Positions 50,207 to 55,892 of a stretch of 64,000 bases of DNA are shown one piece after another. Origin of the DNA: Acidobacteriota bacterium (GTDB lineage Bacteria; Acidobacteriota; Terriglobia; Acidiferrales; UBA7541). Made by a program: the position numbers and the translations under genes. The DNA lies in assembly GCA_013289855.1 (NCBI GenBank), contig JABCZD010000005.1, positions 186,001 to 250,000 on the forward strand, written 5' to 3'. Each line of letters starts with the position of its first letter. The first letter of the stretch is position 1. The notes beneath the pieces were generated by a model. It saw only the letters and a list, made by a program, of their open reading frames with translations. It was not told where the DNA came from and ran no database searches.

Positions 50207-51079
50207 ATGGCGCACGCTATCCAGGCAACGCATTTACGGATTCAGGATATCGTCGACGCTACTCCATTTTTGAAGTGGGCGGGCGGAAAGAACCAAATCT
50301 TTGATCAGCTCCTGCCATTTTTCCCGAACAAATTCGAGAACTACTTCGAAGCGTTTGTCGGCAGCGGAGCCGTTTTCTTCAATCTCCGCAGACTTCACGG
50401 TCACTTTCCGGCGTCTTTGACAGACAGGAACGCGGAGCTAATCAATTGCTACAAAGCGATTCGGGACGAACTTGCCAAACTCATTCCCAACCTAGAAAGT
50501 CACAAGCGCAATCACGATGAGAAGCGTTACTATCGCATCAGAGAGCAGGATCCGAGCGGCCTGTCCTCCGTTGAGCGGGCGGCAAGATTCATATACCTGA
50601 ATAAGACCTGTTACAACGGACTGTATCGGGTTAACAGGAGCGGCAAATTCAACGTGCCGATCGGCTCGTACAGCAATCCGTCGGTCTTCGACGAAGACAA
50701 TCTGGCCGCAGTATCGGCAGTCCTTAACGGAGTCAAATTGCGCGTTGCTGACTTTAGCGCAGTACTCGACTCCGCGAAGTCCAACGACTTCGTCTACTTT
50801 GATCCCCCGTATTATACGGAGGACAACGGTTTCACCGGCTATGCCGTATCCGCGTCTGGCGCCGCGAGTTTTGGTGCAGACGAACACCGGCAGCTGAGGA
50901 ACGTGGTCGATGAACTCAGCGATCGCGGCTGCCACGTCGTCGTCAGTAACAGTGATACAGACTATGTGCGGCGTTTATACCGCGAATACAAGAAAAATAC
51001 AGTCAAGGCGCGTAGATACATAAATTGCAACGGCGCTGGACGTCATCAAGTTTCTGAGCTAGTCATCACGAACGAATGA
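50207..51079 (+). CDS. Dam/DpnM-type DNA adenine-N6 methyltransferase
   Basis: Type II methylase of 290 residues, alpha class (order FxGxG then DPPY). AdoMet pocket: FLKWAGGKNQIFDQLLPFFP and FEAFVGSGAVFFNLR (FVGSG 50-54); catalytic DPPY at 199-202 in VYFDPPYYTEDNGF; the family segment ARFIYLNKTCYNGLYRVN. GATC is the usual target for this group, but specificity is inferred only. Codon choice differs from the neighbouring housekeeping genes (more AGG, ATA-type and A/T-ending codons), suggesting acquisition. It overlaps the next gene by 4 bp. Confidence 0.93.
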   Translation: MAHAIQATHLRIQDIVDATPFLKWAGGKNQIFDQLLPFFPNKFENYFEAFVGSGAVFFNLRRLHGHFPASLTDRNAELINCYKAIRDELAKLIPNLESHKRNHDEKRYYRIREQDPSGLSSVERAARFIYLNKTCYNGLYRVNRSGKFNVPIGSYSNPSVFDEDNLAAVSAVLNGVKLRVADFSAVLDSAKSNDFVYFDPPYYTEDNGFTGYAVSASGAASFGADEHRQLRNVVDELSDRGCHVVVSNSDTDYVRRLYREYKKNTVKARRYINCNGAGRHQVSELVITNE

Positions 51080-51516
51080 AAAGAATCGAGACCACGGACG
51101 TCCCCCAGGCCAACAGCCTGCACCGCGTCTGTGATTTGCTCGCGCTGGTGGGCGAAGGAATCGAAGATAAGCAGGAGTTGACGCGCCAGCTTGGCCTCGT
51201 CACCCGCGAGCTAGATTACTATAAACACGCAGCTCGCATTTTAGGCTTCGCACATTTCGAGCCACCAGAATTTTATCTCACCGCTAATGGGAAGGGCTAC
51301 CTTGCTGGGTTGAGAGCCGAGGAGAAGCGCCTGATGCTAGCAAGTGCGGTGCGGGAAGCCTACGTTTTTCGTGAGCTTCTCTCGCAATTTCCAGAGAAAG
51401 ACCTCGATAAAGATCGAGTCACAACTTTTTTAATGGAAAGAACGGGGCTCAATAAGACGACCGCCCGGCGCCGCGCCGATACGATGATTGCTTGGCTCAA
51501 GTACACGCGGGACTGA
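51076..51516 (+). CDS. Winged-helix-like protein of the restriction-modification operon
   Basis: 146 residues, helical, with a putative winged helix at the N-terminus (VCDLLALVGEGIEDKQELTR, QLGLVTRELDYYKHAARIL) and a second HTH-like segment at the C-terminus (MERTGLNKTTARRRADTMIA). I cannot name the family with certainty. It overlaps the methylase gene by 4 bp and ends 20 bp before the nuclease start. It could be a specificity or DNA-binding subunit of the nuclease, or the control protein acting on the inverted repeat at 50151. Confidence 0.75.
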   Translation: MKRIETTDVPQANSLHRVCDLLALVGEGIEDKQELTRQLGLVTRELDYYKHAARILGFAHFEPPEFYLTANGKGYLAGLRAEEKRLMLASAVREAYVFRELLSQFPEKDLDKDRVTTFLMERTGLNKTTARRRADTMIAWLKYTRD

Positions 51517-51536
51517 GCACCGAAGGAGCGCCAATA

Positions 51537-51935
51537 GTGGCTGGAAAAGCAAAAGCGGTCTCTTCTGGCAGCGCTCTTACCAAGAAAGTCAGAACACTCG
51601 CCGAGAAGCTTGGGCTGGAAGTGCATGAACAATTTCGCGTGGGTCACCGGCTCTGGGGCGCGGGCAGAAGGATCGATGTCATTCTGAAGGGCGGACCAAA
51701 CTCAAAAACGCTCGGGATCGAATGCAAATTCCAGAAAAAATCGGGTACCGTGGAAGAGAAAATCCCAACAACCATACGCGATATCGAAGCATGGCCCATC
51801 GACGGGATTGTTGTTTTTTCGGGGGAAGGCTTTACAGAGAACATGAAGGCCTTCTTGATCTCTACCGGCAAGGCGATCGAACTCAAGGATTTAGAGCCCT
51901 GGCTGAGACTCTATTTCGGGCTGCCCTTGGAGTGA
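51537..51935 (+). CDS. PD-(D/E)XK restriction endonuclease
   Basis: 132 residues from GTG 51537, with GAAGGAG 9 bp upstream. Active-site pattern: RRIDVILKGG with Asp 47, then LGIECKFQKKSG with Glu 62 and Lys 64 (ExK), followed by a helix with VEEKIPTTIRDIEAWP, the PD-(D/E)XK fold. Very short for a whole restriction enzyme, so DNA recognition may be supplied by the upstream winged-helix protein. A longer frame from 51492 overlaps that gene. Together with the methylase it makes a Type II restriction-modification unit. Confidence 0.83.
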   Translation: MAGKAKAVSSGSALTKKVRTLAEKLGLEVHEQFRVGHRLWGAGRRIDVILKGGPNSKTLGIECKFQKKSGTVEEKIPTTIRDIEAWPIDGIVVFSGEGFTENMKAFLISTGKAIELKDLEPWLRLYFGLPLE

Positions 51936-52331: not shown

Positions 52332-52652
52332 ATGTCCACTTGTGAACATGGCAATACGGCTCCCGATCGTACACTGGCTGGGCTCCATGAGTCGCAAGCC
52401 GGACCCGGCATCCAGCGACATAAATGCACAGAATGTGCGTACGAGCGCGGTTACCAGTTCGGTCTACAGCACGCGGTCGCGCCAGGCGGCAATGCTGAGT
52501 GCAAGCAAGAGGGACGTCGCGCCCCTAAAGACGTGATCGAGGGCCTTCCGTCGTCCCAAGCGGGACCCGGCCGTCACAAGTGCGCGATTTGCGCCTACCA
52601 TGAAGGGTTTCAGCAAGGGAGGTTGGAGGCGGAGCAACACTCGAAGACATAG
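52332..52652 (+). CDS. Duplicated zinc-ribbon protein with SQAGPG-HKCxxCAY motif
   Basis: 106 residues made of two copies of the same unit. Copy 1: CEHG, then HESQAGPG, then HKCTECAYERGYQFG. Copy 2: C-KQEG, then PSSQAGPGRHKCAICAYHEG. Each copy has four Cys/His positions (C-x-H/E, HKC, xxC) fit for zinc, plus an invariant SQAGPG loop. I recall similar HKCxxCAY units near nucleases in defence regions but cannot name a family. It is 44 bp before a ParB/Srx-like gene and an Mrr-like nuclease on the same strand. A DNA- or protein-binding adaptor is the simplest guess. Confidence 0.75.
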   Translation: MSTCEHGNTAPDRTLAGLHESQAGPGIQRHKCTECAYERGYQFGLQHAVAPGGNAECKQEGRRAPKDVIEGLPSSQAGPGRHKCAICAYHEGFQQGRLEAEQHSKT

Positions 52653-52696
52653 AAATACCTACCCGGTTTCTGACCAAGATAGTTCAGGAGCAGATC

Positions 52697-53809
52697 ATGG
52701 CTGATATCTCAGGGCTTCTAAGTCCTCTTCGCGTGAGCATAGGAGACTTGCTTCTCGATCCCAATAACCCTCGATTCCTTGATCTAGAAGTTCAGTCTGG
52801 CAAGACGCCGGAGGCGCGGTTTAACGAGCCGGGCGTCCAAAGAACGACCTTCGAGCGTCTGAAAGATCGCAGATTCGACGTGTCATCACTACGGGACACG
52901 ATTAAGACCATAGGATTCTTACCCATAGATAAGATTGTCGTTAGACGCTGTAGATTCCCCGAAGGGCAACCCGAAAAATATGTCGTATTAGAGGGGAACA
53001 GAAGGGTAGCAGCGCTGAAATGGTTACTCGATCTAAATGAAGCTGGCCAAGAGCAACTGAGCCAAGAACAGATCCAGAACTTTTCAAATCTCGAGGTTCT
53101 CTTATTAAGCGCCGAGGCAGACAACACCGTTGGGCAATGGATCATTCCCGGCCTACGGCATGTGTCGGGAATCAAGGAATGGGGAGCCTATCAACAGGCG
53201 ATAGCCGTTAAGACACTCCGAGATTCCGGTATGTTGCCCTCCGAGGCCGCACAAAGTATCGGCCTATCTACCAAAGCAGCTAACAAGCTTTGGCGTTCGT
53301 ACTGGGCATTGGAACAAATGCGTAACGACGACGAATTCAGTGAAGGTGCTAAGGAGACTCTATTCAGTTATTTCGATGAGCTACTCAAGAGACCGAACCT
53401 GAAGGCCTGGTTTGGATGGGATGACAACGCGAAACAGTTCACAAATACCGAAAGGATTAGAGAATTCTATATGTGGATTGCTGGGTCCCCAGATGAGGAG
53501 GGGGACGAGGAACGTCAGCCGCCCAAGATAGGGCGGGCTATCGACGTTAGAGACTTGGCCAAGATCGTAGGCGAACCACTAGCGCTAGGCGTCCTCAGGG
53601 GCGCCAACTCGACGCTTGAAGACGCGCTAGCTACGTTTAAGTCCATTCATCCAGAGGACTGGCGCTCGTACGTTGCAACAACCGAAAGCCTGCTCACCAG
53701 ACTCAGTCCGGATTCGCTACGCGCGCTTAGCGCAGAAGACCTGGCGGCCCTGGAGAACTTATCTTTACGACTTCGCCGAGTTATTGAAGACAGGCAGCGA
53801 CTGGTCTGA
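52697..53809 (+). CDS. ParB/sulfiredoxin-fold protein
   Basis: 370 residues. N-terminal ParB/Srx domain with DPNNPRFLD (21-29), SLRDTIKTIGFLPIDKIVV and the signature YVVLEGNRRVAALKWLL (EGNRR 99-103). A helix-turn-helix follows at about 175-200 (MLPSEAAQSIGLSTKAANKL). The C-terminal region (about 265-370) is helical. Some ParB/Srx proteins bind or hydrolyse CTP or act as DNA nucleases; which applies here is unknown. The codon pattern is unlike the housekeeping genes. It is followed 7 bp later by an Mrr nuclease gene, so the two form one unit. Confidence 0.87.
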   Translation: MADISGLLSPLRVSIGDLLLDPNNPRFLDLEVQSGKTPEARFNEPGVQRTTFERLKDRRFDVSSLRDTIKTIGFLPIDKIVVRRCRFPEGQPEKYVVLEGNRRVAALKWLLDLNEAGQEQLSQEQIQNFSNLEVLLLSAEADNTVGQWIIPGLRHVSGIKEWGAYQQAIAVKTLRDSGMLPSEAAQSIGLSTKAANKLWRSYWALEQMRNDDEFSEGAKETLFSYFDELLKRPNLKAWFGWDDNAKQFTNTERIREFYMWIAGSPDEEGDEERQPPKIGRAIDVRDLAKIVGEPLALGVLRGANSTLEDALATFKSIHPEDWRSYVATTESLLTRLSPDSLRALSAEDLAALENLSLRLRRVIEDRQRLV

Positions 53810-53816
53810 ATCGTCC

Positions 53817-54587
53817 ATGCCAGAGCCGAAACCAACCCAAACCGCGTTTTGGCTCCAAAATCTTGCCACAAATGCAGACTTTCGATCCCTAACAAGCCTC
53901 ATCGTCGAGACATTGGAAACAAAGCTCCCGGGAAAATCCCTCGAGGAACTCAGTGATATGGCGGAGGATCAATTCGACGCAGTAGCGACATCACTTGAGC
54001 TCGAAAGAGAAAGGCAGAAGGACGATGGCATCGAACCGACGTTTGAACTTTCCTATGAATCCGGAGCTCCTTATTTCCGCAAGATCGCGTCAGACGCCGA
54101 TAAATTTCTCCAAGCACTCTTTAGGATCTCCGATCGAGATTTCGTGGATTTCTGCGTGTCGTTACTTGGGGCGCTCGGCGGAGACGCCTTGAACATTGAC
54201 GGTCCTCACGACGGCGGATTGGACTTCGTGGCCAGAAATCTTTCCTTCTCGAGCCTCAATGCGGAAGCGATGAGGAAGGCTCGGGTGCTCGTGGTCGGCC
54301 AAGCTAAGCATTATCAGAAAGAGAATCTTGTAAACGAGCCCGAGATGAGGGATTTCGTCGGCGGAGGGCTGAAAAGAATCTCGGACCACACGGACAGAGT
54401 GACCCATAGAGGCCCCGCCTTGGCTCCTGTAGTTTTCGCATTTTGGACTACAAGCGACTTCAATTCCTCAGCTAAAGACTATGCCAAGTCAGTTGGCGTC
54501 TGGACGCTAAATGGAATTGCACTATCTCAGCTTGCTCTGAAGGCCCGCTTCGGCCTGAACGACGCTGGGAAAATACTCAGCCCCTAA
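53817..54587 (+). CDS. Mrr-like restriction endonuclease
   Basis: 256 residues. The C-terminal half is an Mrr-type PD-(D/E)XK domain: FVDFCVSLLGALGGDA, the Asp in DGPHDGGLDFVAR (Asp 136) and the core VLVVGQAKHYQKEN (Gln 162-Ala-Lys 164) in place of the classical ExK. The N-terminal half (1-100) is helical. Mrr-type enzymes cut methylated or foreign DNA. ATG 53817 lies 7 bp after the ParB-like gene stop; a longer frame runs back into that gene. The methylase upstream may mark the host DNA, but a link is only contextual. Confidence 0.87.
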   Translation: MPEPKPTQTAFWLQNLATNADFRSLTSLIVETLETKLPGKSLEELSDMAEDQFDAVATSLELERERQKDDGIEPTFELSYESGAPYFRKIASDADKFLQALFRISDRDFVDFCVSLLGALGGDALNIDGPHDGGLDFVARNLSFSSLNAEAMRKARVLVVGQAKHYQKENLVNEPEMRDFVGGGLKRISDHTDRVTHRGPALAPVVFAFWTTSDFNSSAKDYAKSVGVWTLNGIALSQLALKARFGLNDAGKILSP

Positions 54588-55118: not shown

Positions 55119-55385
55119 ATGCAGCACATAACCATTTCGCTTCCGGACGAGCTCTTAGCAGCCTTTTCGTCGCACGGCCAGGACTTCTCCCGTGCCGCGC
55201 TGGAAGCGCTGGCTCTCGAAGCCTACCGCACCCGTAAAATCTCCGCCGCCCAACTGCGCACGTTGCTCGGTCTTAAGAACCGCCCCGAAGTCGATGCCTT
55301 TCTGAAGGACCATGGCGTCGAGCTGGAATACTCCCTCGAAGACCTCGAGCGCGACCGCGAAACCCACCGCCAGCTTGGCATTTAA
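55119..55385 (+). CDS. UPF0175-family antitoxin-like protein
   Basis: 88 residues: ITISLPDELLAAFSSHGQDF, FSRAALEALALEAYRTRKIS, then LGLKNRPEVDAFLKDHGVE. This is the UPF0175 pattern (small HTH-like antitoxin). It ends 3 bp before the PIN-domain gene, the usual antitoxin-then-toxin order. Confidence 0.88.
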   Translation: MQHITISLPDELLAAFSSHGQDFSRAALEALALEAYRTRKISAAQLRTLLGLKNRPEVDAFLKDHGVELEYSLEDLERDRETHRQLGI

Positions 55386-55388
55386 AAA

Positions 55389-55892
55389 ATGCCTCTGGTT
55401 GTCGCTGATACTACGCCGCTGAATTATCTGGTCTTAATACAAGCGATTGATATTCTTCCCCGACTCTACGGTAGCGTTCTAATACCGCCAGCCGTAAAGC
55501 TGGAACTGTCCGATCCGCACGCTCCCGGGCAAGTGCGCGCTTGGGTGGCAGGACCGAACTCGTGGCTGATAGTTGTGGCCCCAGTGGCCCCTGCTGATGC
55601 TTCTCTCGCTCATCTGGACGCCGGCGAGCGCGATGCCATTGCCCTCGCAACCGAACAGCAAGCCGCGGTGCTACTGATGGACGAACGCGACGGTGTCGCC
55701 GCAGCCCGCGCCCGCCATCTGAAAGTTGTTGGCACTCTCGCTATTTTGGATATTGCCGCGGAGCGAGGCTGGATAAATTTGCCCGCGATGTTCAGCCGTC
55801 TGCGTCAGACCACGTTCCGCTCACCACAGCGCCTGATGGCCATCATGCTCGAGCAGGATGCGCAACGAAGGAGGCAATTCAAGAAAGACTAA
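55389..55892 (+). CDS. DUF3368 PIN-domain toxin-like nuclease
   Basis: 167-residue PIN-domain protein: VVADTTPLNYLVLIQAIDIL with the first acidic residue, then LDAGERDAIALATEQQ and VLLMDERDGVAAARARHL with further acidic residues, and GTLAILDIAAERGWI. DUF3368 proteins are RNase-like partners of UPF0175. It forms a pair with the preceding gene. Confidence 0.9.
   Translation: MPLVVADTTPLNYLVLIQAIDILPRLYGSVLIPPAVKLELSDPHAPGQVRAWVAGPNSWLIVVAPVAPADASLAHLDAGERDAIALATEQQAAVLLMDERDGVAAARARHLKVVGTLAILDIAAERGWINLPAMFSRLRQTTFRSPQRLMAIMLEQDAQRRRQFKKD

Follow-up and report, generated by a model that had tools for sequence, protein, structure and literature searches.

A conserved pair of ParB-like and Mrr-type nuclease genes, a candidate restriction-type module, in an Acidobacteriota genome and in other bacteria and phages

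The locus and its neighbours

The window, the whole 64,000-nucleotide stretch of DNA analysed here, comes from an Acidobacteriota genome. An earlier note on this DNA had described three adjacent genes as a candidate undescribed defence cassette. The three open reading frames (ORFs) are present on the plus strand at 52332-52652 (106 aa), 52697-53809 (370 aa) and 53817-54587 (256 aa, with its ATG at 53817). The intergenic gaps are 44 bp between the HKC and ParB-like genes and 7 bp between the ParB-like and Mrr genes. The motifs ascribed to the three proteins were also found, namely two HKC units in the first, EGNRR in the second, and DGGLD and GQAK in the third. The features of the locus are listed below.

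50207-51935, plus strand: Dam-type restriction-modification unit (methyltransferase 50207-51079, DUF7226 protein 51076-51516, PDDEXK_11 nuclease 51513-51935), from Pfam, PADLOC and NCBIfam
52332-52652, plus strand: HKC-CAY protein, 106 aa, PHROG 3941, a neighbour judged to lie outside the module
52697-53809, plus strand: ParB-like protein, 370 aa, with a ParB N-domain, a helix-turn-helix (HTH) domain and a further alpha-helical C-terminal part
52754-52774, plus strand: LDPNNPR (aa 20-26), counterpart of ParB box I, aligned with the canonical ParB of the same genome
52991-53005, plus strand: EGNRR (aa 99-103), P-motif (GxxR) of the predicted nucleotide pocket, counterpart of GERR, invariant in 36 relatives
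53150-53170, plus strand: GLRHVSG (aa 152-158), at the probable place of ParB box III (ENxQR), from motif order against the canonical ParB L159
53228-53311, plus strand: predicted HTH region, about aa 178-205, from the profile, the relative L066 and the helices of the model
53817-54587, plus strand: Mrr-type PD-(D/E)XK nuclease, 256 aa, from Pfam Mrr_cat, the predicted structure and Foldseek
54210-54224, plus strand: DGGLD (aa 132-136), catalytic aspartate motif, with D136 and G134 invariant in 19 relatives and D132 conserved in at least 90%
54297-54308, plus strand: GQAK (aa 161-164), QxK catalytic motif, with G161, Q162 and K164 invariant in 19 relatives

The codon choice of the locus is unlike that of housekeeping genes, as had been noted, with a GC3 of 0.55-0.62 against 0.63-0.77 in thiE, glmM, serS and gdh. 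The segment from 50 to 55 kb dips locally to a GC content of about 52%, against 57-61% in the genome region around it. Within it the HKC gene has a GC content of 60%, and the ParB-like and Mrr genes one of 52%. Promoter and terminator scans of the locus gave signals at chance level only. Both flanks described earlier were recovered: the Dam-type unit upstream and a UPF0175/DUF3368-like pair at 55119-55892 downstream of the Mrr gene, where the DUF3368 score lies under the Pfam cut-off. The DUF7226 protein of the Dam-type unit aligns to the C-terminus of one PADLOC type II REase model. Judged by this single REase_II model, the unit resembles a type II system whose restriction subunit is divided between two proteins (DUF7226 and PDDEXK_11). 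Its methyltransferase scores 50 bits to PD-Lambda-5_B versus 290 to the type II methyltransferase. The unit is regarded as a separate neighbour of the pair and as a possible functional partner.

The HKC protein holds two units, SQAGPGIQRHKCTECAY and SQAGPGRHKCAICAY. It matches PHROG 3941 over two stretches (E 5e-15), a small phage and plasmid family with no assigned function. Relatives of it occur on their own in phages and in plasmids of enterobacteria, Aeromonas and the Vibrio family; one of them lies between the CI repressor and N in a P22-like phage. Both HKCxxC units are intact in the window protein; the others in a seven-row alignment keep the cysteines in the first unit only. When 297 genomes of the phylum were searched for this protein, scores beyond the window genome were at chance level only.

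The ParB-like protein

The 370-aa protein does not attain the Pfam ParB_N threshold and falls far under the cut-off of NCBIfam parB_part. Despite these scores, its designation as ParB-like in the earlier note is correct, because the structure matches KorB, ParB and Noc. With the predicted structure (pLDDT 91.5) as query, Foldseek returned KorB (8qa9, the best match, E 2.8e-7), ParB-CDP (6sdk) and Noc (7ol9), in alignments that include the N-domain and the HTH. Among PDB chains, a profile built from the relatives of the protein matches those of Noc and ParB (E 1e-5 to 3e-4), and viral ParB/Spo0J-like models match the protein likewise.

Ten residues are invariant across 36 relatives with 21-50% identity, including N24, R26 and the entire EGNRR. 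In the LDPNNPR motif, N24, P25 and R26 are all invariant in a 10-row ParB alignment. EGNRR occupies the place of AGERR in the alignment with the canonical ParB of the same genome, and GxxR is the P motif of the ParB fold (PMC12704722). At box III the residues EN appear to be replaced by RH, with GLRHVSG standing for the canonical VENIQRE; this is our reading from motif order, the automatic alignment being gapped there. G152 and H155 of this motif are conserved in at least 90% of the 36 relatives. The assignment of the HTH region draws on profile matches of the relatives to the HTH chains 8vd6 and 2x48 (aa 166-197), a weak HTH_23 match in the relative L066 and the helices in the model of the window protein. 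Because of the change from EN to RH, the window protein may not share the CTP/Mg chemistry known from ParB. When 28 purified ParB-fold proteins were screened, 11 bound CTP, ATP or GTP and 17 bound no nucleotide (PMC12704722).

The Mrr-type nuclease

The 256-aa protein scores 33.2 bits to Pfam Mrr_cat against a cut-off of 21 (E 6e-8). Its predicted structure (pLDDT 88.4) is nearest in Foldseek to the modification-dependent enzymes MspJI (9e-6) and AspBHI (8e-4), with TM-scores that are low (0.34-0.38) because the alignment is limited to the catalytic domain. By its motifs and its model it is identified as a Mrr_cat-type PD-(D/E)XK nuclease with D..QxK intact. A second Mrr_cat protein is encoded elsewhere in the genome of the window (G000:C22:31078-31419, minus strand, 56 bits).

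Pairing of ParB-like and Mrr genes across genomes

A scan of 84,980 species genomes yielded 80 loci with a ParB relative. These fall into a closest tier (44-50% identity, n=11), an intermediate tier (28-37%, n=21) and a most distant tier (21-28%). The 11 closest relatives are from Pseudomonadota, Thermodesulfobacteriota and Bacteroidota. With the window Mrr sequence alone as query, a homologue was found directly 3' of the ParB gene at ten of them, nine intact (E 3e-30 to 2e-44) and one split in two frames by decay or assembly error (L067:2506-3302). At the eleventh (L075) the contig ends 155 bp past ParB, and the remnant matches the Mrr profile. Genes upstream of ParB and genes past Mrr are not common to the closest loci, barring single weak matches.

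In the intermediate tier the Mrr profile matches downstream of ParB at 13 of the 21 loci, and another locus (L080) has Mrr_cat in Pfam. Four loci have ParB fused to an OLD/AAA ATPase in place of the Mrr pairing. One fusion was tested, L090, which scores 845 bits as a full-length PDC-M38A; PDC-M38B comes next after another (L094). Two further loci are fragments. All Mrr-profile matches within the 80 loci adjoin ParB, the spacing being -47 to 17 bp at the majority of loci. Some of the pairs (L068, L071, L091 and L093) lie amid ordinary genes. The pair also occurs on three viral contigs, beside a repressor-like gene in L172 and between recombinase-like genes in L171. A scan of viral contigs with a single ParB sequence as query gave no match, and one with the Mrr alignment gave no confirmed relatives. 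A DNA-level search of E. coli genomes likewise gave no match. In the Mrr search of its own phylum the window genome was the sole match; thus close pairs turn up sporadically within Acidobacteriota and were probably acquired horizontally.

The two proteins have diverged together. Distances between ParB sequences correlate with those between their Mrr partners (r 0.86, 0 of 5000 permutations), also within the closest clade alone (r 0.64, 41 of 5000). The ParB tree places the window in a clade of 12 rows, starred in the tree, with Mrr in every row. The ParB-fold and nuclease genes, with their conserved motifs, are a conserved two-gene module that is inherited jointly and is spread over phyla and phages. 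The unit is one of two genes and not of three. The co-occurrence search that the earlier note had proposed finds ParB and Mrr together across phyla, often near restriction or phage genes, and an HKCxxCA[YF] ORF beside 0 of the 80 ParB loci. The pair within the supposed cassette is therefore borne out, and the membership of the HKC gene fails on its GC content and its absence from the other loci. Nor is a role of the HKC protein, be it as a third component or as a sensor, supported, as it belongs to a phage and plasmid family of its own. Its context, with stand-alone relatives in plasmids and phages, rules it out as a module member.

The wider ParB family

ParB relatives of the most distant tier are accompanied by a different nuclease-like protein of about 290-340 aa with a D..GQCAxGxxW-type motif. 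Searching with an iterated profile located this second family at 46 loci (L098-L145, L040, L042, L043 and L044), always directly downstream of ParB and with a median gap of 0. The members tested had no Pfam or PADLOC match. Its profile matches the Mrr profile weakly (hhalign probability 68% across the catalytic motifs), so that the two nuclease families may have a common ancestor. A Dam, Dcm or N4/N6 methyltransferase or Vsr gene lies within 2.5 kb at 45 of 53 distant loci, mostly abutting. The loci with ParB, the second nuclease and a methyltransferase or Vsr gene probably represent an unnamed type of restriction-modification operon. The methyltransferase of one locus (L099) scores 364 bits to PD-Lambda-5_B. 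In two Gemmatimonadota loci (L110 and L113) a PD-Lambda-5_A-like ParB protein is followed by Dam and Vsr genes.

ParB, a nuclease of the second family and a convergent cytosine methyltransferase also stand together in three P2-family phages, Wphi, vB_EcoM-12474III and PaeM-D14A. The operons are located as follows.

L164:96-3266: operon of Wphi
L165:4471-7507: operon of vB_EcoM-12474III
L166:4498-7465: operon of PaeM-D14A

The operon of vB_EcoM-12474III directly follows the portal gene Q. The P2 defence hotspot was located by means of the P2 portal gene (PMC9519451).

A search with seven seed proteins placed a methyltransferase within 2.5 kb at 0 of the 32 loci of the two closer tiers, which is an undercount, since it missed a type III methyltransferase 0.3 kb upstream at L073. 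Other loci lie beside a type IIG/DrmMI-like enzyme (L072) or a type I REase (L083). Genes of dnd phosphorothioation adjoin ParB-like genes at L080:2029-3498 and L085:8480-10474 (dndC or dndD at these two) and at L057:6297-11056.

Comparison with known systems

The earlier note had taken the three genes for a candidate undescribed cassette, unlike any known standard defence system. The pair is indeed not a PADLOC system. However, its ParB half is known from PDC-M38A and PD-Lambda-5_A, and ParB/Srx-fold NTPases that drive nucleases are known from GmrSD, BrxU and SspE (PMC10952713). Since PADLOC covers the ParB half in PDC-M38A and PD-Lambda-5_A, the sensor is of a known kind and the ParB-Mrr combination is what is new here. 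No description of a ParB and Mrr pair was found in the literature, a search of open-licence papers only and thus weak evidence of absence.

The N-terminal half of PDC-M38A is homologous along about the whole of the window protein (172 bits in PADLOC), and PDC-M38A proteins nest within its ParB clade. PDC-M38A is, however, a fusion of ParB with an OLD/AAA ATPase (715 aa), and its alignment with the 370-aa window protein is confined to positions 11-363. Downstream in the window there is no PDC-M38B match and a Mrr_cat nuclease is found instead. The PADLOC family PDLC04607 was also followed across the phylum and set aside; its matches are mostly unrelated ATPases, reached through the C-terminal half of PDLC04607.

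PD-Lambda-5, which shields E. coli against almost every phage tested (PMC9519451), shares a ParB-like N-terminal region with the window protein (best E 5e-12). The match to PD-Lambda-5_A covers only about aa 13-177 (43 bits), whereas a true member (L110) scores 188 bits. The C-terminal part carried by PD-Lambda-5_A is another one. PD-Lambda-5_B is a D12-class methyltransferase, while the window operon has no cognate methyltransferase and the nearby Dam enzyme belongs to another unit.

In GmrSD, BrxU and SspE a ParB/Srx-fold NTPase controls a nuclease for defence (PMC10952713, PMC4619093). The window pair resembles them in coupling a ParB/Srx-type protein, a predicted NTPase, with a nuclease. 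It differs in that its proteins have no DUF262 or DUF1524 match in Pfam, and in having EGNRR where those have DGQQR, a nuclease of the PD-(D/E)XK and not of the HNH kind, and a ParB-type HTH. With Mrr, MspJI and AspBHI the nuclease shares the fold and the D..QxK motif. Unlike these, the 256-aa protein has no recognisable domain for reading modified bases and is always paired with a ParB-like gene. The canonical CTP clamps ParB, Noc and KorB share the N-domain, the HTH and the GxxR P-motif with the window protein, which departs from them in the RH for EN at box III, the extra C-terminal part and the nuclease partner. The type II restriction-modification loci of the distant ParB clades have a cognate methyltransferase and the second nuclease family; the window has Mrr_cat, and its nearest methyltransferase belongs to another unit.

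Alternative explanations

We consider it probable, though well short of certain, that the ParB-Mrr pair is a compact module of the restriction type, directed against phages or plasmids. Speaking for this are the constant gene pair and its joint divergence, the clamp and MspJI-type folds, the second nuclease family and the methyltransferase or Vsr genes beside distant ParB relatives, the operons of P2-family phages, and the kinship with PD-Lambda-5 through the ParB N-half and the methyltransferase of L099. The reading is weakened by the lack of a dedicated modification gene in the closest clade, which leaves self-protection without an explanation. The change at box III, the ParB-fold proteins that bound no nucleotide and the pairs amid ordinary genes also count against it. 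One alternative is a unit resembling abortive-infection or toxin-antitoxin systems, in which a triggered Mrr attacks the DNA of the host and the ParB-like protein is a nucleotide-sensing inhibitor or regulator. The tight arrangement of the two genes would suit such a unit, as would the OLD/AAA-fused ParB relatives, which occur with a second protein (PDC-M38A/B) and without Mrr, so that the ParB part behaves as an exchangeable sensor. We nevertheless regard it as unlikely, as the site-specific methyltransferases beside ParB in the distant clade (45 of 53 loci) follow the logic of restriction and not of toxin-antitoxin pairs. Slightly less likely again is that the pair is an auxiliary of a neighbouring modification system, here the Dam-type unit, and cuts DNA that lacks or bears its mark. 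That unit lies 0.4-2.5 kb upstream of the HKC and ParB-like genes, and relatives of the pair are found beside type IIG/DrmMI-like (L072), type III (L073), type I (L083) and Dnd (L080 and L085) systems. Yet the neighbouring system varies from locus to locus and none is in reach at most loci of the closest clade. A Dam homologue is linked at 0 of the 11 closest loci, and the Dam-type unit of the window possesses nuclease subunits of its own.

The original proposal of a three-gene cassette, with the HKC zinc protein as a sensor for ParB and Mrr, is strongly disfavoured and very improbable. The common strand and the 44 bp gap speak for it; the 80 related loci without the ORF, the relatives that occur alone in plasmids and phage immunity regions, the differing GC content and the chance-level scores in the 297 genomes of the phylum speak against it. 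Least credible of all is that a partition or regulatory ParB merely happens to lie next to a Mrr gene. Its fold is indeed that of ParB, Noc and KorB, but the pairing with the nuclease is constant in more than 60 loci, the two proteins diverge jointly, and no ParA was recognised near the pair in the window or, by eye, among the neighbours listed for the loci inspected.

Proposed mechanism and significance

As a restriction-type module, the pair may work in the following way. Using its ParB N-domain and HTH, the ParB-like protein would bind a nucleotide as well as DNA, and would recognise a DNA site or a DNA state typical of incoming DNA. The Mrr-type nuclease would be recruited or licensed by it and would then cut the recognised DNA. 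We infer that the ParB-like protein may load the nuclease, as had been suggested earlier, and that the two would form a physical complex, use nucleotide, have a DNA target and act in defence. In the distant clades of the wider family, the linked methyltransferase would mark the DNA of the host as self. The clade of the window is usually without a methyltransferase in the operon, and discrimination there could depend on foreign base modification, as in type IV systems, or alternatively on the mark of a neighbouring restriction-modification or phosphorothioation system.

More tentatively, and with the balance somewhat against it, the family may form an as yet unnamed superfamily of NTP-gated restriction modules. 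A ParB-type clamp would be its constant part, serving as recognition element and switch. The nucleases (Mrr, the second PD-(D/E)XK-like family or an OLD-type ATPase) and the modification enzymes (D12 m6A, m5C or N4/N6 methyltransferases, phosphorothioation or none) would be exchanged around it. CTP-type clamp loading or sliding would gate cleavage.

The published survey of the ParB fold rested on the Pfam ParB_N model (PMC12704722). Because the window protein scores below that model, the survey would probably have missed it. If the restriction reading is true, the clamp switch that ParB provides in chromosome segregation would be tied to DNA restriction by a PD-(D/E)XK nuclease. It would also account for many pairs of "hypothetical proteins" that lie beside DNA methyltransferases in bacteria and in P2-family phages.
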